NCBI GenBank assembly: GCA_907165065.1
Contig: OU015527.1
Location: 21,775,686 to 21,839,685 of the forward strand
From: Caprimulgus europaeus
Taxonomy: Eukaryota > Chordata > Aves > Caprimulgiformes > Caprimulgidae
Length of the DNA stretch: 64,000 nucleotides
Direction of reading: 5' to 3'
Shown: positions 9,230 to 50,900 of the stretch, piece after piece
Layout: every line of letters starts with the position of its first letter
How positions within the stretch are numbered: position 1 is the stretch's first letter
Translations under genes and position numbers: made by a program
Notes under the pieces: model-generated
What the model was told of the DNA's origin: nothing
Seen by the model: only the letters and a program-made list of their open reading frames with translations
Databases searched by the model: none

Positions 9230-9563
9230 TGTGTCCACTGGCCTCTCTCTCCCTCCTCCTTCCTGACCCCCGCGGGTGAGGGAAGAGCTTCCCACTCTTC
9301 TTGCACAGCATGGGGGCGACCCGGCCCTCTGCCGTGGACAAGACACAGGGTATGTGGACCGGCCACTTACTCCTCAGAGCTCCCCGAGACGGCACAGCTG
9401 GTTGTGCCGAGCCTGGTTGGACAGAGACCGAGCCCCGGCGGGGGACAACTTCTGCCGGAGCAGCTGCCTCTGGGGCAAACTTGGGCAGTCTGGAAGCGCG
9501 AGCCGAGCCGATCTGATCTGAGCCGTGCCGTGCAGTGAGGACCCGAGGCACGGCGCCGGGCGC

Positions 9564-9597
9564 TGACGCACGGCGGGGCGGGCGCGGCGCTATAAAG
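9564..9597 (+). promoter_or_regulatory. CARTPT: CARTPT core promoter: CRE-like half site, GC box and TATA box
   Basis: TGACGCA at 9564-9570 resembles a cAMP-response element half site, GGGGCGGG lies at 9575-9582, and TATAAAG starts at 9591. The TATA box is 43 bases from the start codon, so initiation 25-30 bases downstream would leave a 5' UTR of only about 10-20 nt. Mammalian CARTPT is known to be driven by a TATA promoter with a cAMP-response element. That this site works the same way is inference. Confidence 0.75.
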
Positions 9598-9633
9598 GCG
9601 GAGGAGCGGCGGCGGCGGCGGGGCGGCAGCACC

Positions 9634-10149
9634 ATGGAGAGCTGCCGGGCGCTGGCTCTCTGCGCTGTGACGGCCGCGCTATTGCTGGGCGCCCGCGGAC
9701 AGGGGCCGACCCTGCCGCGCCGCACCCGCGACCTGGGGGCCCCCGGCGGCGGCGGTGGCGGCGGCGGCGGTGGCGGCGGCGCCTCCCGGGAGAAGGAGCT
9801 GGTGGGGCGGGGGGCCCGGGCCGGGACGGGGAGGGCCGCCCGGCCGGGCGCAGCCTGACGGGGGCTATGGGGTCTCTCGGCAGATCGAGGCGCTGCAGGA
9901 AGTGCTGGAGAAGCTGAAAAGCAAGCGGGTCCCGCACTACGAGAAGAAGTTCGGGCAGGTGCCGATGGTGAGTGCCCCGGCGGGATGGGACGGGGCGGGG
10001 AGGGGCGGGACGCAGCCCTCACCGCCTCCCGCTGCCCACAGTGCGACGCCGGGGAGCAGTGCGCCGTGCGGAAAGGGGCCCGCATCGGGAAGCTCTGCGA
10101 CTGCCCTCGGGGGACTTCGTGCAATTCCTTCCTCCTCAAGTGCCTGTAA
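9634..10149 (+). CDS. CARTPT: Cocaine- and amphetamine-regulated transcript prepropeptide (complete, 3 exons)
   Basis: CART is a secreted neuropeptide precursor acting in feeding, stress and reward. The CDS is join(9634-9801, 9884-9967, 10042-10149), 119 residues, starting at an ATG in good context (CACCATGG). Residues 1-22 form a signal peptide with an Ala/Leu core. Residues 38-49 are twelve glycines, followed by ASREKEL. Exon 2 (residues 57-84) carries IEALQEVL and the dibasic sites K70-R71 and K77-K78, where prohormone convertases would release the two bioactive CART forms. Exon 3 (residues 85-119) encodes the disulfide-knotted domain with all six cysteines (85, 91, 103, 105, 111, 118) and the invariant ending SFLLKCL. 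Introns are 82 and 74 bp, both GT-AG and in phase 0. Oddities are the polyglycine tract and the tiny introns. The C-terminal domain appears identical to the mammalian one. Confidence 0.98.
9745..9780 (+). repeat. CARTPT: GGC/GGT trinucleotide repeat encoding Gly12 in CARTPT
   Basis: Twelve consecutive glycine codons (GGC with GGT interruptions) lie in exon 1 between DLGAP and ASREKEL. In mammals the corresponding stretch is an acidic, non-repetitive linker before the first processing site. A second GGC-type run lies in the 5' UTR (about 9607-9626). Such tracts often vary in length between individuals and are prone to assembly errors. Confidence 0.9.
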
Positions 10150-11000
10150 GCGGTGACGCCAGGAGCGCAGGCACCGACACCTCCCCGACGTGCCGGCCTG
10201 GGACGGCGGCGGCGACTTCCCGCGGCTCGTCCGCCCAAGAAACGCATAGAGAAGCCCCCCGCGACGCCCGTGTAACGCCGTCCGTGACATCCGACATCCG
10301 TGGAGCTGTTTTATTTCTCTCCCCTTCCGCCTCCCCTTCCGCCTTCCCCTCCCTCCCCTCCTTCCTCGTTTGATTTTGTCCTTCCAGGAGAAACCCAGCC
10401 CGTGCCTTGCTGAGCAGAGGTACCCGGTACCGGGAGTTGCAGTGTCGTAGCGGTGCAGAGACAAGCCGTGCCGAGCCGTGCCGGGAGCGGGGCTGACCCC
10501 TTGCCGTGCTTCAGGGTACCCGGCCCCTCCCCGAGGAGGGGAACGCCCACCCGCTGCCGGCCGGAGGAGCCGAGGCAAGGGGCTCCGCCGGGCGGCTGTG
10601 GGTGGCGGCGGCGGATGTGTTCAGAGCACCCCGACCCGCCTTGTTCTCGGGTTTCACCCGCAGCGCCGGTTTCGGGCCGAGTCCACCTGCCCCCACCGTG
10701 CGCTGGAGAAAGTCCCGCATGCCGGTGGCGTTCAGGGGTCCGGCACCGGCCGGGCTGAGGTGGGGCTAGGGGAAACCAGTTGCCTTCCTGGAGCCACCAC
10801 GGAGAGAAAGCTGTCTGGATCCGCTGCAAACTTACCAGGGGATATTCTACTCATCTGGACCAAATTCCTCACGTTTCTATAATGAACTGATTTGTATAAA
10901 TATGTTTGTCCTTCACAGGTACACTGTGTTTCAGCAAACTCATGACATGTTTTACTCCTTTGTTTGTCTCTGTTAATAAAGTCACTGTTCTGATGACAGT
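10150..11000 (+). promoter_or_regulatory. CARTPT: CARTPT 3' UTR and poly(A) signal
   Basis: After the TAA the sequence stays GC-rich to about 10780, then becomes AT-rich. AATAAA at 10975-10980, followed by a TG-rich stretch (TGTTCTGATGACAGTG), marks the likely end of the transcript near 11000. That gives a 3' UTR of about 850 nt with an AU-rich segment (TATAAATATG near 10890). No intron is evident in this region. Confidence 0.75.
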
Positions 11001-16680: not shown

Positions 16681-17329
16681 GTCTGCAGTTGAGGGCCTTT
16701 TTATCCCTGTAACCCCTTGCCAACAAGATGCTTGAAGTGATTAAAATTCATTTAACTACCCTAGTTAGCATTTTGTTGTAGGAGTTTTTTCCTGTTTTGC
16801 TGGCTTTTAAGCCAAGACTTCAGAAGTAAAAGCTCCACCAGCTCCACTAACACCACCATCCTGCCTACTGCTCCTCTGTGCCCCAAAATAATCATGGTCC
16901 AAGCTGAAAAGCTCTGCAGTGCCCCAGTGCTCCTATTGATTCACAGGACCCTCCTGATCAGCTCCTTGGAGGGGTCCATGGTCCCTCTCTGGTGTCCCTG
17001 GACATGTTTATGCTTCTGCAGCCACACAGTGCACGGGGAGGTGCGAGGCAAACCTGCCTTTTATTTAATTACGTTCTATTCACCTTAAAACTTTTATTAT
17101 TCATACCATTAGCAGTTAGCAAAGGGTGTTTCATCTGCTTCATACCTATGCTTTTGCAGAGATATATGTATTTAATTCCTGTGTCTTTATAACTATGTAT
17201 ACATACATATACACACACAATACATAAGCACATACATGCAGACGCCTATTACACAAACCAGTGTGCCTATGTGTAAGCAAATACAATATATCCTGATGCA
17301 TATTTGTACGCTCCTTTATACATTCACGG
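16681..17329. other. Intergenic, AT-rich, no gene recognised
   Basis: No gene seen. A TA/CA-rich low-complexity tract lies at about 17165-17290 (TATACATACATATACACACAC), immediately before an abrupt switch to GC-rich DNA at 17330. Confidence 0.6.
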
Positions 17330-17640
17330 CCGTGCCGCGAGTGCCGCAGCTGTGCGGTCCCGCCCCCGCCCCCGAGCGCGTCCCAGCCCAGGGGCAGCAG
17401 GGAGCAGCCAGAGGCAGAGCACGGGCGCGTGGGGAGGGCAGCAGCCAGCCAATCGCACGGCAGGACAGTGGCCACGCTCTAAGATGGTGGCTGAGACAAA
17501 ATGGCGGCTTCCTGTGCAGGGAGGGAAGAGGAGTTCCTGCGCTGAAGTGCCACTGGCTGGGGTGGGTGGTCCTCGCAGCCAGCCACAACAGAGCACATCA
17601 CCGAGGGGGCAGGGCTTCTGGCTGGCTGAAGGAGTAGAGC
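17330..17640. promoter_or_regulatory. Small orphan CpG island with promoter-like motifs
   Basis: About 300 bp of CpG-rich DNA in an otherwise AT-rich setting. It contains clustered GC boxes (CCCGCCCCCGCCCCCG near 17360), a CCAAT box (AGCCAATCG at about 17448-17456), and two YY1-like elements, AAGATGGTGG and AAAATGGCGG (about 17480-17507). The combination is typical of TATA-less housekeeping or lncRNA promoters, and the ATGGCGG elements in plus orientation hint at plus-strand transcription. I see no coding exon attached. It could be a lncRNA promoter, a CARTPT-linked regulatory element, or the remnant of a GC-rich repeat. Confidence 0.45.
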
Positions 17641-21412: not shown

Positions 21413-22576
21413 AATGCTGAGGTGGGTTGACCCTGGCTGGATGGCAGATGCCCACCAAAGCCCACTCTATCATTCTCCTCCTCAACTGGGTAGGGAGAGA
21501 AAAATATAACAAAAAGCTCATGGGTGGAGATAAGGACGGAGAGAGATCACTCACCAGTTACTGGCACGGGCAAAACAGACTCGACTTGGGGGAAAAAACA
21601 AATTTAATTTATTACCAATCAGACAAGAAGATAATGAGAAGTAAAATCAAATCTTAAAACACCTCCCCCACCCCTCCCTTCTTCCAGGGCTTAATTTCTT
21701 TCCCAATTTCCACCTCCTCCCCCCAGCAGCACAGGGGGACAGGGAATGGGGTTGGGGTCAGTTCCTCACACGTTGTTTCTGCTGCTCCTTCCTCCTCAGG
21801 AGGAGGAGGACTCCTTCCCCCGCACCAGCGTGGGGTCCCTCTCACAGGAGACAGTCCTCCACCAACTGCTCCAACGTGAGTCCTTCCCATGACTGACAGT
21901 TCTTCACAAACTGCTTTAGCATGGGTCCATTCCATGGGGTGCAGTCCTTCAGGAAGGGACTGCTCCAGCGCAGGTCCCCCACGGGGTCACAAGTCCTGCC
22001 AGCAAACCTGCTCCAGCGTGGGCTCCTCTCTCCACGGGCCACAGGTCCTGACAGGAACCTGCTCCAGCGCGGGCTTCCCGCGGGGTCACAGCCTCCTTCA
22101 GGCATCCACCTGCTCCGGCATGGGGTCCTCCACGGGCTACAGGTGGTCATCTGCTCCACCATGGACCTCCAGGGACTGCAGGGGGACAGCCTGCCTCACC
22201 ATGGTCTTCACCACAGGCTGCAGGGGAATCTCTGCTCCAGTGCCTGGAGCACCTCCTTCCCCTCCTTCTTCACTGACCTTGGTGTCTGTGGATTTGTTTT
22301 CTCTTGCATCTTCTCACTCCTCTCTCCAGCTGCAAAGTGTGATGCTTTTATTTCCCTCTCTTCCTTTTTTTTCCCTCAATTCTGTTATCACAGAGGCGTT
22401 ACTGGTGGGCTCGGCCTTGGCCAGCGGCGGCTCCGTTCTTGTAGCCACTGGCATTGGCTGTGTCGGGTCAGACATGGGGGGAAGCTTCTGGCAGCTTCTC
22501 TCACAGAAGCCACGCCATGTCCCCTCCCCCCCTCCACTGCTACCAAAACCTTGCCACGCAAACCCAATACAAATGC
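21413..22576. mobile_element. Solo LTR of an avian ERVL-like element with 5-bp target duplication
   Basis: The LTR proper runs from 21418 (TGAGGTGGGTTGACCCTGGC) to 22571 (CCCAATACA), i.e. TG...CA ends, 1154 bp. It is flanked by the identical pentamers AATGC at 21413-21417 and 22572-22576. A 5-bp duplication fits ERVL-class integration. I recognise the left part (GGATGGCAGATGCCCACC, GCAAAACAGACTCGACTT) as a widespread avian repeat. Only one LTR is present and there is no internal region, so two LTRs recombined to leave this solo copy. The middle holds an array of TGCTCCAGCG-type units. A possible AATAAA on the minus strand near 21607-21612 suggests minus orientation, but this is uncertain. Frames of 221-234 residues across it are array artefacts. 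Confidence 0.85.
21855..22245. repeat. Degenerate minisatellite inside the solo LTR
   Basis: Roughly 50-60-bp units each contain a TGCTCCAGCGYGGGTCC-like core followed by CCACGGGGTCACAGTCC-like sequence. At least seven cores are visible: near 21866 (CTGCTCCAACGTGAG), 21910, 21969, 22008, 22059, 22108 and 22151. Units differ at many positions, so the array is old or was already diverged in the master LTR. Confidence 0.8.
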
Positions 22577-22765: not shown

Positions 22766-22966
22766 CAATAAAAACTTCTTTACTGTGAGGGTTCCAGAGC
22801 ACTGGAACAGGCTGCCCAGAGAGGTTGTGGAGTCTCCATCTCTGGAGATGTTCAAAACAAACCTGGATGCAGTCCTGCTCTAGGTGAACCTGCTTTGGCA
22901 GGGGGGTTGGACTAGATGATCTCCAAAGGTCCCTTCCAACTCTGACCATTCTGTTATTCTGTGAGA
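22766..22966 (+). mobile_element. CR1 LINE, 3' end fragment
   Basis: Typical last 200 bp of CR1: AAACTTCTTTACTGTGAGGG, GAGCACTGGAACAGGCTGCC, CATCTCTGGAGATGTTCAAA, GGTTGGACTAGATGATCTCC, ending ACCATTCTGTTATTCTGTGA. This is a severely 5'-truncated, non-coding insertion in plus orientation. Confidence 0.95.
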
Positions 22967-23830: not shown

Positions 23831-24354
23831 GGTCACTAAGCAGGAATATGTGGGCTGAAACCAGACCAAGCCCATCAGACTCTTAAAAGTTCATTTTATT
23901 GGTTATCCAGTTTTCATATTTTATGTTGGGCTGACCAACATATGCACTGATATTGCTCTTATAGTTTGCTATGTTATTACATGGTTTCCCTCCTACCCCC
24001 TGCCTACCTAGTTAGAAGAAATCACAGCACAGTCTCCTCAGCACTTGCTTGTAACTGCCCAGTTGCCCTTGTCCCTCTTGGACAGGGACTTCATTCTCTG
24101 TGCACCTACCAAGGGTATGAGAGCATGAAAAAGGGAGGATTAGGCCAGGTGCATGTCAAACCTTGTGGTCTGCCAGGGTATGAACCAAGGCACAGCACAT
24201 CACCATTGTGCCAGGGAAGAGGGGCACCTGCAAATACCCACTGCAGGTGTGTGTTTCAAGGACTGTTTGAGCTAAGTACTAATGGTTGGAAAGCCAGCAC
24301 CATCTCCCACCATCTGAGCTGGGCAGGCTTCCTCTTAAGCAGCATCTCAGCTTC
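23831..24354. other. Intergenic, no gene recognised
   Basis: A 143-codon frame (23966-24397, plus) runs into the neighbouring CR1 and has no family features. Nothing else is recognised. Confidence 0.5.
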
Positions 24355-25445
24355 ACAGAATCGGAGGAGTTGGAAGGGACCTCAGGAGATCATCTAGTCC
24401 AACCATGCTGCCAAAGCAGGTTCCCTACAACAGGTTGCACAGAAAAGCATCCAGGTGGGTTTTGAACATCTCCAGAGATGGAGACTCCACAATCTCTCTG
24501 GGCAGCCTGTCCAGTGCTCTGGCACCCTCACAGTAAGGGAGTTTTTCCTTAGGCTTGTCTGGAACTTCCAGTGTTCCAGTTTGTGCCCATTGCCCCTTGT
24601 CCTGTCACAGGGTACTACTGAAAGGAGCCCGGCCCCATCCATTTGGCCCCCACACACTTCAGGTATTTATAGACATTGACAAGGTCCCCCCTCAGTCTTC
24701 TCCAGGCTGAAGAGTCCCAGCTCTCTCAGCCTCTCCTCACACGGGAGATGCTCCAGGCCCCTCATCATCTTTGTGGCCTCCGCTGGACTCTCTCCAGAAG
24801 ATCCCTGTCCCTCTTGAACTGAGGAGCCCAGAACTGGATGCAGTGTTCCAGATGTGGCCACACCAGGGCACAGTAGAGGGGGAGGAGAACCTCCCTCTAC
24901 CTGCTGGCCACGCTCTTTTTAATGCACCCCAGGATACTGTTGGCCTTCCTGGCCACAAGGACACACTGCTGGCTCATGGCCTCCTGCTGCCCACCAGCAC
25001 ACCCAGGTGCTTTTCCTCAGAGCTCCTCTCCAGCAGGTCAGCCCCTAACCCATACTGGTGCATGGGGTTATTCCTCCCCAGGTGAAGGACTCTGCACTTG
25101 CTCTTGTTGAACCTCATGAGGTTCCTTTACACCCAACTCTCCAGCGTATCCAGGTCTCGTTGAATGGCAGCACAGCCTTCTGGTGTGTCAGCCACTCCTC
25201 CCAACTTCGTACCATCAGCAAACTTGCTGAGGGCAGACTCATCCCTACACCCAGGTCGTTGATGAAGATGTTAAACAAGACTGGACCCAGTACCAACCCC
25301 TGGGGAACACCACTAGTTACAGGCCTCCAACTAGATTCTGTGCCACTGATCACAACCTTCTGAGCTCTGCCAGTCAGCCAGTTCTCAATCCACCAAAACT
25401 GTGCCCATGCAGCCATACCAGCAATATGGTCCAGCCTGCTCTCAG
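24355..25445 (-). mobile_element. CR1 LINE, 5'-truncated and internally deleted
   Basis: Minus-strand CR1 with its 3' tail at 24355 (plus-strand view CAGAATCGGAGGAGTTGGAA) and its truncated 5' side near 25445. Read on the minus strand it has part of the reverse transcriptase (frame 25416-25114 includes VTSGVPQG and [10 protein letters not shown]). It then jumps directly to the downstream NETW...WR segment, so the stretch carrying the rest of the RT palm is missing. The C-terminal ORF2 region follows in shifted frames ([22 protein letters not shown]). It has no endonuclease domain and is not mobile. Confidence 0.93.
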
Positions 25446-26350
25446 AAAAAAGTGCATATTTGGCCTGAACGCTCTAATAGCTTGGGGGCTCTAGATTTCC
25501 CCTGCTATACTTTGGAACACAACAGGTCCCCCTGTATGCGTATGCAGGGACTATTCCCTCAGGGTGAGGGGTTTGCCAAGGAAGAGGAGCAGTTTCTTTG
25601 CATGCTGATTCCTGTGAAACTTGGCCTCCTGACTCTGGGCAGAGCCAGCTGTTGACAGGCATCCCTCTGCAAGCTTCCTGGCAAAGACCTTCTTGTCCAA
25701 TTCCACCACTTGCCCTCAAAAATGGTTTTATTTCCTTTGGTTCTTTAGACTACCTTTCTAAAGATACAGCATTATGAATGTATCCTTTGACTACTCAGTT
25801 TAGATTAACATATAGTAGTTTGGGGTTGTTTTCTGTACCGCTTTTGACATACAAAAGCAAAATTTATGAGGACTGGGGCATAAAGTAGGTACTTTGGAAG
25901 TGATCTCCTAATTACAGATTAACTTGAAGGAGTGAAGAAGTAGTTTTTTTCAGATGTAGTTAGTATAGCCAAGCATATTTTTTTCCACATCAGCAAAACC
26001 CCCCCCCCCTCACTGCCTTTAAAGAAGAGACTATGGCACTTAGACATGACACACAAATTTGCTCTTAGCTATATAAATCAGAGCTAAGAGATTCTGTGGA
26101 AAAAATCATAGATGTTGCAAATTTGTTAGAGATCCACTTAGTTCCTATGTTGGCTTAGATTTTGTAAAGGTTCTTTGTTTTGGTTTTTTTGGCCATGGCT
26201 TGGTTTAATGGCAAAAAATGACATTTTAGTAGCTTTGAGGAATTTTTTTGAGGTTTTTTTCTTGACCTGTCATCAGTTCTCTTAATCTCCAAATTAAGAA
26301 AGTGAACCACCACACTTCAACAATGTCTGAAGTAGACTAAAGAACCTGTG
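25446..26350. other. Intergenic, no gene recognised
   Basis: AT-rich with short homopolymers, including a run of about 12 C at 25998-26010. No gene or repeat family recognised. Confidence 0.6.
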
Positions 26351-27843
26351 GTTAGCAAAATGAGACATGATGAGATGCATCCCAGAGTCCTGAGGGAATT
26401 GGCTGATGTAGTTGCCAAGCCGCTCTCCAAGACATTTGAAAAGTCATGGCAGTCAGGTGAAGGCCCTGCTGACTGGAAAAGGGAAACACTGGACTCACTC
26501 TTTAAAAGCGTAGAAAGAAGGATCCTGGGAACTACCGCCCTGTCAGCCTCACGTCTGTGCCTGCGAAGATCGTGGAACAGATCCTCCTAGAAGCTAAGCT
26601 AAGGCCCACACAGGACAGGGAGGTGATTCCAGACAGCCAGCATGGCTTCACCAAGGGCAAGTCCTGCCCAACCACCCTCGTGGCCTTCTATGATGGACTG
26701 ACCAAACCACCACACTATATCAGTAGACAAGGGAAGAACAACAGATGTCATCTGTGTGGACTACTTTAAGGCCTTTGATATGGTCCCCTACAACATCCTT
26801 CTCTCTAAATTGGAGAGACACAGATTTGATGGATGGACCATTTGGTAGATAGGAACAGGCTGGATAGTCACATCCAGAGAGCAGAGGTCAACAGCTCAAT
26901 GTCTGGGTGGCAATCAGTGATAAGTGGTGTCCCTCAGGGGTCCATATTAGGACCAGTACTGTTTTAATATCTTAATCAATGCCATAGACAGTGGAATCAA
27001 GTGCACGCTCAACAAATCTGCAGAAGTCACCAAGCTGAGTGGTGTGTTTGACATCCCTGAGGGACAGGATGCCATCCAGAGGGACTGGGACAAACTTGAG
27101 AAATAGGCTCATGTGAACCTCCTAAGGTTTAACAAGGTTGAGTGCAAGGTACTGAACCCAGGTGGGGATGATCCCCAGTATCAATACAAGCTGGGGGATG
27201 AAGGTATTGAAAGCAGCCCTGCAGAGAAGGACTTGGGGGTACTAGCTGGATGAAAAGCTGGACATGAACTGGTAACGTGTGCTTACAGCCCAGAAAACCA
27301 ACCACATTCAAAAGAAGCGCAGCCAGCAGGTCAAGGGAGGTGATTCTGCCCCTCTACTCTGCCCTGCTGAGACCCCACCCAGAGTACAGTGTCCGGTTCT
27401 GGAGTCCTCAGCACAGGAAAGACATGGACCTGTTGGAGCGGGTCCAGAGGGCACCTCTCCTATGAGGACAGGCTGAGAGTTGGGTTTGTTCAGACTGGAG
27501 AAATGAAGGTTCCAGGGAGACCTTATAGCAGCCTTTTAATACATAAAGGGGGCTTATAAGAAAGAAGGGGACAGACTTTTCAGCAGGACCTGCAGTGACA
27601 GGACAAGGGGTAATGGTTATAAAACTAAAAGAGGGTAGATTTGTACTAAATATAAGGAAGAAATGGTGCAACTGTAACAGGTTGCCCAGGTAGGTGGTCA
27701 AAGCTCCATCCTTGTAAATGTTCAAAGCCAGGTTGGATGGGGCTCTGATCTAGCTGAAGATGTCCCTGCTCACTGCAGGGGGGCTGGACTACATGACCTT
27801 TAAAGATTCTTTCCAACCCAAACAATTAATTCTAGGATTCTAT
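26351..27843 (+). mobile_element. CR1 LINE, ORF2 pseudogene with RT domain remnants
   Basis: The longest CR1 copy, about 1.5 kb, plus orientation. It begins inside ORF2 (HPRVLRELADVVAKPLS), continues through the reverse transcriptase region ([10 protein letters not shown], then [10 protein letters not shown] in another frame, and [17 protein letters not shown]) and the C-terminal domain ([28 protein letters not shown]). It ends in the CR1 3' UTR (GGCTGGACTACATGACCTTT ... CTAGGATTCTATG). Several frameshifts and stops break the frame, and the N-terminal endonuclease is absent. It is more diverged than the copy at 39.7 kb. Confidence 0.94.
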
Positions 27844-33800: not shown

Positions 33801-34661
33801 AGGTCAAACTCAACACTTAAGTGACATGAAGAGTTGTGAGTTTAAAAGGACTACTGCAAATGTACACAACCTGGAATCAAGTTCTACTTCATTATGTTTT
33901 TTTAAAGGAACACTGCTACTCCTGATGAAGACTCTAATTTTGGATTCTCTAAGCAAAACTCTTATTTTGGTGAAGTAACCTATCCTAGCAAAAACCAGGA
34001 CACATCCTATGTAGAATAAATAAGTAAATGTAGCAATTTCATAATTCGTGTAATTTATATTTTTCCTGAGGTTCCCTGCACAGCACACATGGGACCTTCT
34101 TCAAGATCAAGTTTTACTGGTTTTTTTTTGAAACAGATCAGTGAAATGCAGCTACAACATTTCTTTAGTGGGTGCTCATTCATTTTTTGACTACCACTAT
34201 AGGCTCATTGCTCAAAACCCTTTACTAGATGGCTTCTTAACAAAAAGTAAAAATACTAAAAGTACACAGGGAAGGAGTATATCATTAGAATTAGGGAAAA
34301 AATATTTAAATGGAATTACTGCTATGTAAGCTGCTAACTGACAACTCATAATCTCTCTGCAAACACATGTACAGGTCAGGCAGTAAAACATTCAATCCTT
34401 GTCGTGTTCTCTGATGGCCTCCCCAAGCCTCCACAGCCCCTTTCTTACTGCACTAACTTTTCCAGAGCAAGTTAAGCTGTTTGTCATTTGAGTTAGAAAA
34501 AAATTTTCAAATACTGTCCCTCTTTCAGTAGTTATACAACTTATAAATGCTTGCCATATTGACTAAAAGCGGGGCCAGAGAAATGGCATTTCGAGTTGCC
34601 TATAAAGATGAAAGCTATTCCAATGCCCATGACAGTGTAGAACTTCCTTCTGCTGCAAACA
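27844..34661. other. AT-rich gene-free stretch between the repeat cluster and MIR31
   Basis: I see no coding exon or classifiable transposon in 6.8 kb. Homopolymers include T16 at 28110-28125 and an A-rich run at about 31141-31168. The frame at 28275-28775 (minus, 166 codons) has one hydrophobic stretch but no family match and no gene-like context. If the MIR31 host transcript continues past the hairpin, its 3' exons would lie here on the minus strand, but none can be recognised. Confidence 0.5.
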
Positions 34662-34745
34662 GACAGGAGAGATGGCAATATGTTGGCATAGCAGGTTTTT
34701 AGGTCAACAGCTATGCCAACATCTTGCCTCCCCTCCAGCTCTGCA
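34662..34745 (-). ncRNA. MIR31: microRNA precursor mir-31
   Basis: The minus strand folds into a long hairpin. The 5' arm carries miR-31-5p at 34729-34708 (begins AGGCAAGAUG, seed GGCAAGA) and the 3' arm carries miR-31-3p at 34693-34672 (begins UGCUAUGCCA). The inner 19-bp arm pair (34674-34692 with 34709-34727) has a single mismatch, and pairing extends outward to the CAGA/CUCUG base. The loop (about GUUGACCUAAAAACCU) matches the chicken precursor as I remember it. The 5p strand has U instead of the human C at position 11, a difference shared by the chicken form. miR-31 is a conserved vertebrate miRNA that represses many mRNAs and acts in epithelial, muscle and tumour biology. Both mature sequences are intact, so it should be functional. 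Confidence 0.97.
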
Positions 34746-37700
34746 TAAAGGAACTTCTTGGAAGGGCATCTGTGGGAATTGTATATTTTACTGTGATTTG
34801 TTTGATCTGAAATAGAAAACCAAAATTTAGGTAGAAGTTTCACATTATTATGTAAAACATCTGAAAATCAATCTCATCGTACCGTGTACAGTAATTCTAA
34901 TGTGAGTTCATTTTTACTCCTTAGGCTGTAAGATTAAAAAAAAAAACCCTGACAAAGGACTTAGTTTTTAATTCTGAGCCTGTTAACAGTTGCAGAGCAG
35001 AGACAACATTTGCTTAACTATTCTTCATACAGCAGTAGTGGAGTCAGTACTTTCCTTACCAACACATCAACAAAATCCAAGAAGGAGGATGGTCGATCTA
35101 GAGATGTATCCTACATACTGTAGTAGAAGTCCATTCTTAAGTGACTTATTTTAAATACTTGTTTTCTGGATTTGGTCACTCTCTTTGTCCTAGATTCACC
35201 TAAACAAAAAAGTGCTGCCAAAGGAAGAAATTTTAAACACAAACATTTGCTGTTACAAAAATATATCAGCAGCTTCATTCATACTTAGAACTCACACTGG
35301 GGGCTTTTTGGGAGGGCAACAGATTTGCCAAGGAGACAGATTTTCAAAAGGAAAGTGGTAGTCGTTAAAACACTGGAGACAGTCTCATGCAACTTACTTT
35401 GCCCACAGTGCAAAACTTCTGATGTTTGGTGGCTGCTTTTTTGGGTTTTTTTTAAACATAAGAGGGGTGGGGGAGGGAGGAAGATATTTGAATATATTTC
35501 TGTTACTGTATACCTGGTGCTGTACGGTAGCCAAAAGAACAAGACTGAAAGGTAAAAGTCTAATAAGCTTAAGGATATTTGATAACTGTATCTGGAACAC
35601 AGAGACTACATCAGTCATTCACAACACCAAATGTATGTGTTACTGAACAGATCATGTTGTCAACTGTGGGAATTATCAACAGTACCTTTAATTTTCATGT
35701 CCCTTCTCTGTATTCAAACCTGACACATTAATGTTATATCAGTATTGGAGCTTTTTTTTTTCCAGATTACTACAGGATTTTTGGGAGATGAGGAGAAAAG
35801 CAAAGGAAAAGTTATTTATTTACATTGGCTACAGCATCTTTAACAAAAGACAAGTGCATTCATGGTCACCAGACGCTCTGGTAACATATTTTGTAAGCAA
35901 TCTCTGAAGATGCTGTGTTCCCGTAAACCCTTTCAAAGCTGCGGTTGTTGCACAAGGTAGCATCCTTCAGGTGCTACTGTGCTATCAGTGATCAAATCAC
36001 TTAACAATATACAACCCAGAACCGTCCAAAAAGAGGAGTGAAGACAGGAAGGCATGCTTTTTCGTATTACACAAATAGAATAGAAACCATTATGAAACTA
36101 AGCACTTTATCACATTTCCAAATAACACAAGAGAGCATCTTTTGTTGTCCTTGTTAACACTTGTGTCTTTAATTAACATTACAATTGGCATGCAAGCTGT
36201 CATTGTTTTAACACAATTGAAAGTCTCTTTTTCCACCAATTATTCTCTTGTAAGAAAACTGTGCAGTTGAAGACTTGTGAATGACATTGCATTTTAAAGA
36301 GTCCCTTTGGAGTTATTTTTAAAAAAACAGTTTAAGGAAAAGCTTTCAAATCTACCATTTGAAAATATTGTCAGTTAATTCCATTAGAGTTTTCCATTCA
36401 GATTACTGTATCTCAGGGTGGGAAAAAGTTTTAATTCTTCAAAATGGGAAGCAAGTTCAAAATGCTTATTTCATAAAAATTGTGGATACACAGAAAAAAC
36501 ATGTTTACTTGTTTATTTTGCATTTGTTAAGCCTTTCTGCCTTTAAAATTTAGATTATAAATATATCTGAAGCAGGTATGATGATTACCTTACAGATTTC
36601 TTATAAATGAATATGGTTATGTTAAAACTTTTGCAGTACCTCTGCATTTGCTTAAGCTAACAACTTTTCCAAGACTTTACTGAACTGAAACTGCCTACAT
36701 TTGGGATCTGATTCTGGAAAACTTTTGTGTGTAAGTGTACTCACAACAGTAGGGGGCTTTTATACTCTGACATGACATATAATAAACAAGAATTAAACTG
36801 AACAGCAGTGTCAGCAGACAAGATCAGGGTGTGTCAACACTGATGTTCTCTGACCTGCCAATCTGATCTCCTACAATCGCTTTTGTCCTAACAAAGCCGG
36901 TTGTTTTGGAGGACAGTGTATGACCTGCAGCTTAGTCTGGGCTTAGGCCAAGGAAGGTACTATTTCAAAGCAGCATATTCTAGCTATGCCACCAACCCAA
37001 ACAGTCTGGATTTGGCATCTGTGATAAACCAAAACCTAACTGGTTCAAACCACCGGCTTGGAAGCAGTAACGGGCTGCCTCTGGAAGGTAACACCCCATT
37101 TGAAAAATCCATCACTGAAGCTGAAAGCAGAGCTGTGTAAAGCTTGCAGAACTACCGAGCAGCTTGCAGGACAGGGCAATCCTGACAATCAGCTGATAAA
37201 GTACCACTGCTGTCACAGCTCATTTGAGACAAAGTTTATTGTGAAAGAATAAAGGAAGCTTTAAATAATCTAATTAATGTATTTTGTAGATTTCTACACA
37301 GATCCTACAAGCTAACAAGACAAACAGGTTACCCTGGCAATACATCACATGCTACCAAATGTGCAAAGCAAACCAGCTGTTGAAAGAATAATTTTCTGAT
37401 TAAGTAGAAAATTTAATGGTAACTGATAAAACCAGAAGTGGGATGGGGGAATGCAGATAGTGCAGTTTTCTTAATGACTCACTAACTTCACCTGTTCTCT
37501 CTGTCAAAAAGTTCAGTAGTAGTACACAAGTTTCCTTCAGTATGGCCAGATAATGATATGAGAAGGGAAAGCAAACAGGCTACAGGCTGACTTCGTTTGG
37601 TTCATTACAGCCTCTCCCACCCTCAGACTGCTCTCCACAGTTTTCAAAACATACTGCAACAGAGGAGCAGGGGAGAGAGATAGCAAAAGCGGTTGAATCA

Positions 37701-39709
37701 GATCAAGAATGAGTACCTCACAAAAGCAAAGCTGTAGGTGTAAAAGAATCCTGAAACAAAGGAAAACCTCCACATGAACATTGCAGGAGAGGAGAAAGGA
37801 AGGAATAAATAACCATTGGTGATACTGATTCACTGGGAACCTTGCAGTAGAGAATGCAGTATGCCTTCCAATTCCCAGCATCACCTTCTCATTGTGTATA
37901 GACCTGCCCTGAACAGGTTTAGACAACCAGTATTTAAAGTGCTGGCAGCTGCCTGGAGCTTCTTCTATGATAGGGCTCCCACTATAAGTACCAGAAGCTG
38001 TAGTGGCATTAGCAGTTATGTGTGTGAGGGAACCCATGAGGAGAAAGCAGGCAGCCTTAAGGGCACAGTTTAATCCCTGTAATTATGTAGGCCTGGTAAT
38101 ATAAAGCTCTGCAAACAAATTCTGAAGCTCCATAAAACTGGGAGTTTGGGATGTTTCCTGAAGGATCTTTGTTTTAAAAACAAGTATTTTGGCAGCCTCT
38201 GACATGCATTATCCATTTCAGTATATTTTCTCACTAATTATAGACTATGCCTAATTTCCTCAGAATAATAGCCTGAAATTTCTAAAGATAAGACTCTGTC
38301 ATAAATTGACTTAATCGCATTTTAATTAATTTTCATTTATTGCATTGGCGAAAGTATTTTTTCCCATTAAATGCAGAATTAGCACATTTTTGAAAGAAAG
38401 AAATACTTTGAGGAGAGCAAACCAGCATATGGACACACAACACTGCTGAGGCATCACACTCTTAATCCAACAGGACTGATGAACAATCAGGAGGTGCTCC
38501 AAATCGTAGGGAGACTGAGGCCAAAGAGGTGGCAGCTCTCCTGTGGACTGGGTTCCCAAAGAATTTTTTGTTAGACTTCTAAAAATCTGAAAATATTCTG
38601 CACCAGGAAGAAGATTAAGGGAATGAGCAGCAACCACTTTCCATCAGATCCTGCAATCACAGTTTGCATGAAAGGTTTTCAGCTGAGAATGTATCAACAA
38701 TAAAAAAGCAGCAGCTGGAAACAGGAAAACACACACCTGATCAAAATAGTCATTGAGGAAAAACTTGAGTGTTGTCATGCTTCTTTAAAAAGGATTCATA
38801 TGTATTCCTCCCTCACAGCAAATCACTTGTCCATAGAGAATTTTATAAATTATTCCTCCAGAAATATTTATTCACTTATTGCAGTATAAACCATTATTAG
38901 TTCTAACTGGATTATTCTGTGGGAATAAAAGAGAAATGTAGTATAGGCTGTGTCTTTTGAGAAATGTTGTATTATCTGTCTTTGGACACTGAAAAATGTG
39001 TAGTTTCAAAAATAGATTATTTGGAAGATCCCAGATTGAAGCATCCCATGGAGGCTCAATTTCTGAGATTTTGATGAATTTCAAGTCTCTGAGAGAACTA
39101 GCAATCTTTAAAGGTTGCCCCAGAACCAAGGAACTGAGGTGTGTGAGTTGGATAGGTTTGTCTGAGCATTCAATTATGCAGCACTGAAATTTGACAGGCT
39201 AGTACACCTGACTTCACCTGATAATGAGTATGCTGACCCTTACTCAGGTGTCTGATTCTAACTATTCACTTTAAAAAAATATACTGATCTGTGAGTGTGT
39301 TTAAAAGACAGTGTAACTTCAGTTTAACTTCATTCACTTACATTCATATTTATGCAGATATGAATAAAATACACATTTTATCAATTTTTTAATTAAGCAA
39401 TACACTTGGCATGTTCCAGTGGTAAAGTCTGCAACATGGAAAACAACTTTTAACCACATTGCTTATGAGTTAATGGAATCAGCTAGAAATGTAGTGCCAC
39501 ATATGACTAGCCAAAATATCCAATGCTACAGACACACCAATATTCCTGTAGTCCTTATTTATAAAAGAAATCCATGTGATTTTAATGTCAGCCCTTGCAT
39601 TAAAGAATACTTGAACTCAAGCCCTGGGTTTCAAACTTCACTGCAGGTGACAGATGCAGCTCCCCTTAATAACTTTACAACCTATCTATCAAGTCCATTC
39701 ATTATCATG
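34746..39709. other. AT-rich, no coding gene recognised (within inferred MIR31 host interval)
   Basis: Low-repeat AT-rich DNA. The frame at 37537-38037 (minus, 166 codons) has no family resemblance. No other hairpin as good as mir-31 was noticed. Confidence 0.5.
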
Positions 39710-40400
39710 GCTGTGCTGCCATTCAACGAGACCTGGACACGCTGGAGAGCTGGGCGGAAAGGAACCTGATGAGGTTCAACAAGAGCAAGTGCAGAGTCCT
39801 TCACCTGGGGAGGGATAACCGCATGCACCAGTACAGGTTAGGGGCTGACCTGCTGGAGAGGAGCTCTGAGGAAAAAGACCTGGGTGTGCTGGTGGGCAGC
39901 AGGCTGGCCATGAGCTCCTCAGTTCAAGAGGGACAGGGATCTTCTGGAGAGAGTCCAGCGGAGGGGACACAAAGATGATGAGGGGCCTGGAGCATCTCTT
40001 GTGTGAGGAGAGGCTGAGAGAGCTGGGACTCTTCAGCCTGGAGAAGAGAAGACTGAGAGGGGATCTTACCATGTCTATAAATATCTGAAGTGTGTGGAGG
40101 CCAAATGGATGGGGCTGGGCTCTTTTCAGTAGTACCCAGTGACAGGACAAGGGGCAATGGGCACAAACTGGAACACCAGAAATTCCAGACAAGCCTAAGG
40201 AAAAACTCCCTTACTGTGAGGGTGACAGAGCACTGGGACAGGCTGCCCAGAGAGGCTGTGGAGTCTCCATCTCTGGAGATGTTCAAAACCCACCTGGATG
40301 CTTTTCTGTGCAACCTGTTGTAGGGAACCTGCTTTGGCAGCATGGTTGGACTAGATGATCTCATGAGGTCCCTTCCAACTCCGACCATTCTGTGATTCTG
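39710..40400 (+). mobile_element. CR1 LINE, 5'-truncated 3' segment
   Basis: Well-preserved plus-strand CR1 3' segment of about 690 bp. It starts at CTGTGCTGCCATTCAACGAG and encodes [37 protein letters not shown], then in shifted frames EKDLGVLV and [11 protein letters not shown]. It ends with GGTTGGACTAGATGATCTCA and ACCATTCTGTGATTCTGT. It is among the youngest-looking CR1 copies here. It lies antisense to the inferred MIR31 host transcript. It is non-autonomous and truncated. Confidence 0.95.
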
Positions 40401-46400: not shown

Positions 46401-46749
46401 TATGGCCTCAGCTCCAGTCATAAGGAAAGGATACGGTTAAATATGATGGGGGAGCCCCCGTGCAAGTAAAAAGCAGTATGATCATCTATACGAAGTTTCC
46501 TCAGCGATCTGCACAGGCTAAACGTAAGTCAGTACGAGATGGAACAGCAGCTAGCTGTAAGCTGCGGCAGTTTGTCCTACGAAAGCATTTACCTGAAGCC
46601 ACACCTGAGAAGCGTGGCAGGGTCTGGCTCTGGCTTTATGCCGTTCCCCATTATTTGCTTAAGATAAATTTATTCTTTAATTCTTCCCATTCCATCCTCC
46701 AGCACATCCCGGTTAATAACCCGACACCCGTTTCACGTTAGCGTAACTA
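40401..46749. other. AT-rich, no coding gene recognised (within inferred MIR31 host interval)
   Basis: 6.3 kb of repeat-poor, AT-rich DNA between the CR1 and the CpG island. Frames of up to 106 codons have no family features. This is the region where first-intron or early exons of a MIR31 host transcript would lie. Confidence 0.5.
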
Positions 46750-47950
46750 CTGTTTTATCCGGGAAGTGACTTTTAGTACTTGGACTCTCCCGCCGACGAG
46801 ACGAACCACCCCCGCGGCCGGGGACCCCGCCGGGAGGGGGCCGAGGGCCGCTGTGGCCGGCAGCGCCGGGGAGACCCGCGTCCTTCCGCACGCACCGCCA
46901 CCCCTCGGAGGAGTCGGTTACCGAGCCAGTGAGCCCCCCGCCGGCTCCCCGCGCCCACTGAACAGACTGCGGGACACGGAAACGGCGATTCGTGTCTCCT
47001 TCGGCCGCGAGTGCTGACAGAAGGCGCCAAGGTCTCGGTCGCCGCCAACCCAGCCGGGGCCGTTCCTCCTCCGGTGGACACCGCGCTCCTCGCCCTCCAA
47101 ACGAAAACGGTCCCCGGCAGTGCTGCCTAACGGGAGGGCTCCCCTCCGGCCGCGGAAAGCGAAGTTGGTCCCGCCCGCGACGGCTACGGGCTCTGCGCAG
47201 CCTCTGGCTCCCTTAGGGGACAGCCATGGTCGCCCCGCGCGGGCAGCGCCACCCGCCCCAGCCCCGCAGCGCGGCCCCGTCCGTACCTGCAGCGGCGGAG
47301 CCCGGCGAGCTGCGGCACGGCGGGCGCCTGGCCGCACCGCCACACACCTGCAGCCGCGCAGGAGCGGCCACCACCGGCGCCGCTCGCTGCCCACGCCCGC
47401 GGGGGGACACGCCTCGCTCAGCCAGGGCTACCGCCTCGTCGCCGTCAGGCGGGAAGGGGCGGGGGCGCGGCGGGCAGCCTGGCCGGCGCGGCGGTGCCCC
47501 AGCGGCGAGGGGCCGTTCTTGGCCGCCGCCACTTCGTCTGCCCCCGATCTGCTGCGTGCATTTTCCATGTCCCGCCGGGCCCGCCCGGCCCCTCCAGCCG
47601 GTTTGTTTCCTTTGCTTCTCCAGCTGCGCTGCAGTCGAGGTGCCATTTCTCGTGCGCGGGGTCCGCAGCGGCAACTCGCCTCGAAGGCACCTTCTCCGAG
47701 AGCCAGCGTCCGCCCGGCACCCGGCTCCCTACTAGGGAGGAGCCAGTTTCCGGCCGCAGACCTGTCGCCCGCTCCCAGACTTGCTGCAGGTCGCCGGCGC
47801 GGAGCGGCCCGGCCTGCGCGTCGCTGGGGGCCACGCGCGGGCCTCAAGAGTTGCGCTGGCGCAAGGTGTTGCACCCTGTCGCGACAGCAGCCGACAGCTG
47901 GGAGAGCGGATCGCCTGGCGTGGGCTTACGGGCTGTTCGGATAGGCGGTA
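46750..47950 (-). promoter_or_regulatory. CpG island, candidate MIR31 host-gene promoter with minus-strand splice donors
   Basis: A sharply bounded 1.2-kb GC- and CpG-rich block stands out from AT-rich flanks. On the minus strand two strong donors are visible: CTGCAG|GTACGG with the exon ending at 47287, and CTGCAG|GTGTGT with the exon ending at 47348. No comparably good plus-strand donor was found. Frames of 130-274 residues on both strands overlap heavily and are low-complexity Ala/Arg/Pro/Gly, as expected for non-coding GC-rich DNA. I checked it against the N-termini expected for MAP1B (the next gene after CARTPT in mammals) and MRPS27 and found neither. The association with MIR31 is inferred from strand, distance and the absence of any other promoter. 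Confidence 0.65.
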
Positions 47951-50900
47951 TACACAGGCACGCGCCCAGTGATAAGTATACTCAACTATGTGTAGGCTTC
48001 CGGATGCATACACCTCAAACGCAACCTTTCCAACGTCGAGTGCTCATCAGATTTTGCCACTTTCAGTTTATTTTAGGGCAACCAGCAAGATACTGTAGCC
48101 TATGCAGAACACGAGCGCCACTGCTCCTTTCTACAGTTCTTATGGTAGTAAGGGTGACCACATCTTAAGAAAAAAAAAAAAAAAAATAACTCACATGTCT
48201 TAGTTTTGGTATGTATAGAAAAAAAACATTCCTGATCAGACCTGTCAATACAGTTGGGAAACAGACAAATTTCTGGACCTCGTTCCTTGTCATGGCTGAA
48301 AAGAAGAAAAGAAGCTGCAAAATGCAAGATTAAAGGGTTGTTTTGTTTTGTTTGTTTGTTTTTTTAAAGTTAGGTACAATTGTTTAAGTAATCTGTTGGG
48401 CTGCTTCAGAATAAAGGTGGTGAACACCTGTGGAGTGGAGCAGGGAGATAGGTGGGTTTTGTATCCTGTTACTCATGGAAAGGGAACCCTTATGATTTCT
48501 CTCCATTGGTGTTTTTATTTTCAGTCCGAGTTGGAAACTTTGGTCTAGAAGCTGAAATACAGAAAAGCTAAAAAAAAAAAAAAAAAGTTAAAGTGTGACT
48601 TTCAAAATTACACTTCCATGTGAGGTAGTAAACTCTGAGCTTCTGTTCCAAGAAGTACACAGGCATACACCATAGAGAAACATGCTGCTAATTAAAAATC
48701 ATGCTAATTTCTAAAATTAACTACATTACTTCCAATACATGCTATTAGAGCAGTGTTTGGGCAAATATATTCTTTCTTTATTCCAGCTCTGTTTTGTACT
48801 CTCATCCAATCTTTGTATATAGTAATTTTCAATATTTCCATCTACGTTCAGTTAATTTCATAGTGCCATGCTGTTTTGTACAGTGTTCTCCCAGCAATTT
48901 GAAACATTCTTTCACACTTAAAAGAAGGCAATTTTAAACTCGCAAAACTGACAGAGCAGCTGAGATAAAATCTTCAGCTGCCTTGGTGAGAGGATTTTTG
49001 TTTATGCCACATGTGGTCTGCTTTTCCTTAAAGCTCTCTGTGAGAGATGGATGAATGGTCTTCCAGAAGAAAGTCTGCTGACTGTAGTGAGCCATTAGTT
49101 CCCTGCTTTTTGCCTTTCAGCTGGCTGTAGATTTTTTACCAACTGTAAAGTTACACCCGTTTTAATCACCTTCTGCTTGGTGAGGAAGGGAAGCAACATA
49201 GACTACACAAGCAGCCCTGCACCGATTTACCCTATGACCAAGCAAGGCTTGGGCAGGCCTCCCAGCACGTGCAAAATCCTTTTTCACCTGTGTCAGTGCA
49301 TTACATCTCAGTTCAGTCTGGTTTGAGACTATAGCTGACATTTCTGGTTGTGGGAGCTATTGCTCAGGTATTTTCCATGGCGTGGGTAATATTCACCTGT
49401 GTTGTGCAGGCTTCCTCTGCTTCCAGTCACAATTAATGCAGCGTAACTTTGTGAGAAACAGAGCAATTGCTTGCTTTAAAGTAACATTACAGGAATATTC
49501 TATAAATATCTTGGTCCTTGATGCAGGGCTGCAACTGTGCTGTCCTTTGGCAATTTTTAATTAGGAGTAGCAACAACTGAAGAGGACAACTAGAGAAAGG
49601 GACCACCAAACCAGGCCATCTTCTTGCCAGCTCTCTGCTGACTACCAAGCACTGTTCTGCAGTGCTTACTGATGACAAACAGTCTTATAACCTTAAGGGT
49701 AGTTGGTTTCTGCAAAGACAATGGAGTATACTCAGCCTATTGCAGAGTCAGGTCCCTAACAGGGGTGGCACTGTAATTATTTTAGTGATTAAATTGTAGT
49801 CATGCCTTTTATATATCAATTGGATTATTAAGAAGAGAAATGCAATGACAACCAAGCAAGGCTGAAAAATGAAGGGTATCAAGTTGATCTTACAGTTTCC
49901 CACATTTTTGCTAGTGCTTAGTGAGTTGGGATATATCAGGAATAATTTTTAAACTTTATATTGTGCATGCATAGTGATACTAATATCTGGTTCAGTCAAA
50001 GCTACTCCTTACCTTATAGGAAAATTAGAGCTATATGTGCTTGTTGACTCACAGGATATGATGATATGTTAGGGATTATAAAGTACTTCACAGACATCAG
50101 CTAAATACTTTTTTAAATAGTTCTCCTGACATTTTTTTTCAGCAGGAGCACTGTTTTCGTGTTCTAGATTTGTTTCAAAAGCTTGTGATAGCACAGCTTT
50201 CTCGCCTTGCAAATCTTTTTAAGGTATATCTTAAATGAAACCCCAAACTAAAACTATATGCAGTTCTGTATATCTTTCTCCTCGTCTGGTAAAACCTGAA
50301 AGCTTTCAGACTATTTACAAGTGCAGATGAAATGAGAAAGAATAAAAGGAATATACTAAAAGGATAACTGCATTTTTATGCTGAAAACCTGCATTTGAGT
50401 TCAACAGTTGTCAATAAACTGAATGCCATGTATGTCTACCTAATGTTTAAAATCATAATTGTCCAAACCACTTCATTTTTACAAGTACCTACAAATCCAC
50501 TGACAGAAGCTTTTATCTTGATATATATTGTGTGGCTTGAAATACTGCACATAATTCCTTCTGTCTGTTTCTGTTAGATGTTAAAGCTCTAAAACTTACA
50601 TTCCAGTCTCCAGGTTTGGTGAGTGTGTACTAATGCAACTTTTTTGCACTCATCTCACTGTTTTTACTCAAGGACATAACCACTGAAGCAAACAGTTCTT
50701 AGAAAACTCACCGGTTACCTGCGTTTTGCCAGTAGGAAACAGGGCTCAGTGATCTGGCTGAAATTGTGTAGTAAGTCAGGGGTGCGGCTGGGCAAGGAAC
50801 TCCAAAAAGAAGATTTTGTACCCACTTGTCAGAAACAAAAAGAGCAGCCTAGGAGAGGGGGACAGCTCAGCTCAGGTAGCTGCATTCCATGCACACTGAC

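Follow-up and report, generated by a model that had tools for sequence, protein, structure and literature searches.

In humans, mir-31 lies within the lncRNA MIR31HG, in intron 1 (PMC3675212) or intron 2 (PMC8395036) depending on the source. The start site of MIR31HG is CpG-rich (PMC3663613), and published lengths of this gene are 105 and about 150 kb (PMC3663613, PMC8395036). In chicken, mir-31 is already known and studied (PMC9818168, PMC9876980, PMC10420004); it is located on the Z chromosome (PMC9818168), at 83.2 Mb of chrZ (PMC10420004), and its expression has been shown by small-RNA sequencing (PMC9876980). Chicken miR-31 was clustered by sequencing with male-biased miRNAs in a paper that also cites a male bias at E5.5 and E6.5, but no clear difference between the sexes was seen for it by qRT-PCR in the same paper (PMC9818168). 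The position of the miR-31 transcription start site bears on this question of sex bias, miR-31 being Z-linked in chicken. From luciferase assays, the 2,180 bp before the chicken hairpin have been taken as the promoter, the activity of which goes up with retinoic acid and down with C-jun; the main text of this source contains none of the terms 'CpG', 'transcription start', and 'host gene' (PMC10420004). A narrow literature search found no description of MIR31HG in chicken, which is weak evidence of its absence.

The mir-31 hairpin on the minus strand

The window, that is, the whole stretch of DNA analysed (64 kb), carries a mir-31 hairpin (pri-miRNA stem-loop) that spans approximately 34,659-34,744 of the minus strand. 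The Rfam model of mir-31, RF00661, matches 34,661-34,740 of this strand over its full length (model positions 1-83 of 83) with 81 bits and an E-value of 4.7e-17, the gathering cut-off of the family being 51 bits; the loop here is three bases shorter than in the Rfam consensus. The sequence-only reading had described an intact miR-31 locus on the minus strand, with both mature strands on the arms of an inverted repeat, and this description is borne out down to the coordinates that it gave. Mature miR-31-5p (22 nt) matches exactly at 34,708-34,729 (minus strand), and 34,672-34,693 (minus strand) matches exactly the 22-nt sequence, including its ends, that we take to be miR-31-3p. The inverted repeat is 27 nt long and 85% complementary, with arms 17 nt apart. 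When either strand of the 64-kb window is searched, each of the two mature sequences occurs once, and these exact matches are on the minus strand only. The 5p strand has T/U at position 11 and the seed GGCAAGA, and the 3p strand occupies the opposite arm. Human miR-31-5p has C at position 11, where U stands here; this U is not specific to birds, because the Rfam consensus also has u and the 21-mer with U turns up in 18 papers, many of which deal with fish and invertebrates (flounder, sea cucumber, abalone, clam, snail, and nematode among them). Every letter of the 5p sequence agrees with the gga-miR-31 published for chicken (PMC9876980), and a duck study lists the same letters as a primer under the name miR-72-x (PMC12562460).

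The minus strand was also expected to form a stable hairpin, as it does in prediction: the RNA of 34,651-34,752 folds at -50.5 kcal/mol against a mean of -28.4 for 200 dinucleotide shuffles (z = -6.60), none of which folded as well, and 19 of the 22 bases of miR-31-5p are paired. Raw folding energy was dropped as evidence of singularity, since the hairpin is absent from the 25 lowest-energy windows among 4,262 windows of 90 bases taken every 30 bases, a spacing that can split the hairpin; 24 of these 25 lie within the two CpG islands, and the remaining window is at 17.3 kb. The identity of mir-31 is certain because of the sequence match, its raw energy not being exceptional in the window.

Several details of the predicted fold concern processing. 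In 5p, pairing begins only at the second base (34,728, opposite 34,674), which leaves the initial base (34,729) unpaired, and the loop end of the duplex is similar to the basal end, with 34,710 paired to 34,692. The usual 3′ overhang of a miRNA duplex is two bases; here, with the 3p ends as we take them to be, the overhangs at both ends measure one base if the unpaired first bases are taken as the reference and two if the first paired bases are. Placement rules exist for the CNNC and basal UG motifs of pri-miRNAs. By these rules, the sequence CAGC at 34,652-34,655 (minus strand), which begins 17 nt past the 3p end, is a CNNC motif and speaks for a functional precursor, whereas the customary basal site has no UG motif, which speaks against one.

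We put at about 0.97 the probability that this locus is a functional vertebrate mir-31 orthologue transcribed from the minus strand, identity and hairpin being observed, processing and repression being expected from the family. The primary transcript of this strand would fold into the mir-31 hairpin, from which, as in the family, Drosha and Dicer would excise the 5p/3p duplex, and the 5p strand loaded onto Argonaute would repress mRNAs via seed pairing. A functional precursor on the plus strand, or miRNAs from both strands, would agree with the plus-strand score of 59.6 bits, which exceeds the Rfam cut-off, and with its fold (-42.1 kcal/mol, z = -4.71). However, the plus strand is worse than the minus strand by 21 bits and 8 kcal/mol, the exact mature sequences are confined to the latter, and the plus strand passes the cut-off and folds because the hairpin is nearly palindromic, its near-perfect self-complementarity explaining the signal. 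An antisense miRNA was accordingly rejected as a by-product of this near-palindrome, and a plus-strand precursor is very improbable. Even less credit is given to the idea that mir-31 here, instead of being the active gene, is an additional copy that has decayed or arisen by retroposition, against which stand the complete Rfam model, the intactness of both mature strands, and the neighbouring CART gene, which in chicken is Z-linked like miR-31. As a functional orthologue, mir-31 here is a known, conserved, and ordinary microRNA gene, and the hairpin adds nothing new.

An open frame of 108 aa running across the hairpin on the minus strand (34,541-34,867) was taken as chance. A scan of viral contigs with the core of miR-31-5p gave 0 matches, and a tRNA scan of the window found none. 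Matches to mir-297 at 17,176-17,241 (33 bits, cut-off 90), mir-266 (26.2 bits, cut-off 80), and whalefall-1 (22.6 bits, cut-off 37) were rejected.

CART and other features of the window

CART (CARTPT), a neighbour of mir-31 and not part of its locus, is encoded on the plus strand at 9,634-10,149 by three coding exons (9,634-9,801, 9,884-9,967, and 10,042-10,149), which have GT/AG ends as read by eye and encode 119 aa. Pfam CART is matched in the frame of the last exon with an E-value of 4e-21, no Pfam match being found in that of the first exon, and the product aligns with PDB 1hy9 over 39 residues. A CpG island covers the gene at 9,311-10,900 (170 CpG, observed/expected 0.88). Within exon 1, a CGG-type repeat at 9,744-9,781 gives rise to a glycine run.

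Chicken CART1 is on chromosome Z and has 3 exons encoding 111 aa (PMC4436185), compared with the 119 aa of the precursor here, so that the window probably comes from a bird other than chicken. Because chicken miR-31 and CART1 are both on Z and the two genes are neighbours here, the neighbourhood of CART and mir-31 fits a bird Z chromosome, from which the window probably derives.

One repeat is present in three copies, at 24,353-25,177, 39,709-40,395, and 22,770-22,962; the copies at 24.4-25.2 kb and 39.7-40.4 kb are 93% alike and in opposite orientation, and the third is about 85% alike. Near them are a reverse-transcriptase remnant at 25,114-25,473 on the minus strand (Pfam RVT_1, E = 5.3e-7) and a second RVT_1 remnant, just under the cut-off, at 26,506-26,769 on the plus strand (E = 1.9e-6). 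These repeat copies and remnants presumably belong to a CR1-type LINE. Degenerate tandem units of about 45-51 bases each make up 21,818-22,144, with long open frames of 237 aa on the plus strand and 117 aa on the minus strand. The patch at 17,162-17,420 that gave the sub-threshold mir-297 match is TA/CA-rich, and a small CpG-rich patch adjoining it folds on the minus strand at -59.2 kcal/mol over 120 bases, a value without shuffle control.

The CpG island at 46.7-48.1 kb as a possible start of miR-31 transcription

A CpG island with no recognised gene occupies 46,661-48,070 (170 CpG, GC 0.69, observed/expected 1.02), 11.9 kb upstream of the hairpin on the mir-31 strand. From its CpG content and a change in the sign of strand asymmetry nearby, it is a candidate divergent promoter and a candidate start of the miR-31 primary transcript. 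The sequence-only reading had placed mir-31 in an apparently empty region, and had identified no other conserved functional element from CARTPT to the right edge; this 1.4-kb candidate was thereby overlooked. The island is as strong as that of CART, with 170 CpG each and observed/expected ratios of 1.02 vs 0.88, and the 11.7 kb between hairpin and island hold 56 CpG at a ratio of 0.13. Counted without a control, GGGCGG occurs four times in the island on the minus strand and once on the plus strand; the count of splice-donor-like sites at 45-50 kb, seven on the minus strand and four on the plus strand, also lacks a control and carries no weight.

Strand asymmetry is linked with transcription. 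It was taken as the excess of T over A plus that of G over C on the plus strand, in 500-base blocks and against 20,000 sign flips, leaving out CART, two repeat stretches, the island, and the patch at 17.2 kb. Under the caveat that neighbouring blocks may not be independent, the asymmetry is +0.112 at 48.05-64 kb (26 of 31 blocks of the same sign, 0 of 20,000 flips as large) and -0.044 at 26.7-46.4 kb (24/36 blocks, p = 0.023), reaching -0.082 close to the island at 40.4-46.4 kb (9/11 blocks, p = 0.045). It is +0.084 before CART at 1-9.4 kb (16/18 blocks, p = 0.009) and +0.057 at 11-24.3 kb (16/25 blocks, p = 0.11). The best switch point is at 51-51.5 kb with a difference of 0.191, compared with 0.170 at 48.0 kb, and is thus near the island, not at it. 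We know of no plus-strand gene at 1-9.4 kb, and because this segment nevertheless has a plus signal, the measure is not specific.

The odds are about even that the island acts as a divergent promoter, one of whose products may be the miR-31 primary transcript. In such a case, this transcript may start at 46.7-48.1 kb and the hairpin would sit within a host lncRNA, much as human mir-31 does in MIR31HG. The island as the start is favoured by its CpG ratio of 1.02 vs 0.13 in between, the minus-strand excess of GGGCGG, the change in the sign of asymmetry, and the CpG-rich start of human MIR31HG; against it are the chicken reporter activity near the hairpin, the weakness of the leftward asymmetry, the best switch point at 51-51.5 kb, and the plus signal at 1-9.4 kb, which makes the measure not specific. 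Slightly short of an even chance is the alternative that transcription begins close to the hairpin, at a promoter no more than about 2.2 kb away like the one described in chicken, in which case the island would serve another, rightward gene. The luciferase activity in chicken cells (PMC10420004) speaks for such a promoter, as do, as uncontrolled counts on the minus strand before the hairpin, one TATAAA at 36,764 and three CCAAT at 36,188, 35,828, and 35,748, and the strongest asymmetry lies right of the island, where the rightward gene would be. However, CpG is scarce in the 2,180 bases preceding the hairpin (12 CpG, observed/expected 0.17), which hold no exact AP-1, CRE, DR2, or DR5 site, and in humans miR-31 is transcribed from the CpG-rich start of its host gene, far from the hairpin (PMC3663613). 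As for a rightward gene, Pfam searches of a chosen part of the plus-strand frames right of the island returned 0 families for both strings, and MTAP was not found in the window, where the best match covers 13 residues, lies at 22.5 kb, and is due to chance (E = 6.6). In the human arrangement, MTAP presumably neighbours MIR31HG beyond the host promoter, and here it may lie beyond the right edge of the window.

Comparison with the human and chicken loci

With respect to chicken, the likeness of this locus extends from the identical letters of miR-31-5p to the neighbourhood, gga-mir-31 being Z-linked as chicken CART1 is. As a candidate promoter, the island offers an alternative to the one published for gga-miR-31 that can be tested directly; it is a modest and still hypothetical lead. 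In humans, CART is on chromosome 5 (PMC4436185) and mir-31 at 9p21.3 (PMC3663613), hence on different chromosomes, whereas here they are neighbours in one window. The chances appear balanced that, despite this changed gene order, the island has been kept as the counterpart of the MIR31HG start and that birds have a miR-31 host lncRNA whose true, divergent promoter it is, the 2.2-kb chicken promoter then being an intronic element. The start of human MIR31HG is CpG-rich, and here likewise a CpG island is found upstream on the same strand; human MIR31HG is 105 or about 150 kb long, whereas the distance from island to hairpin here is 11.9 kb.
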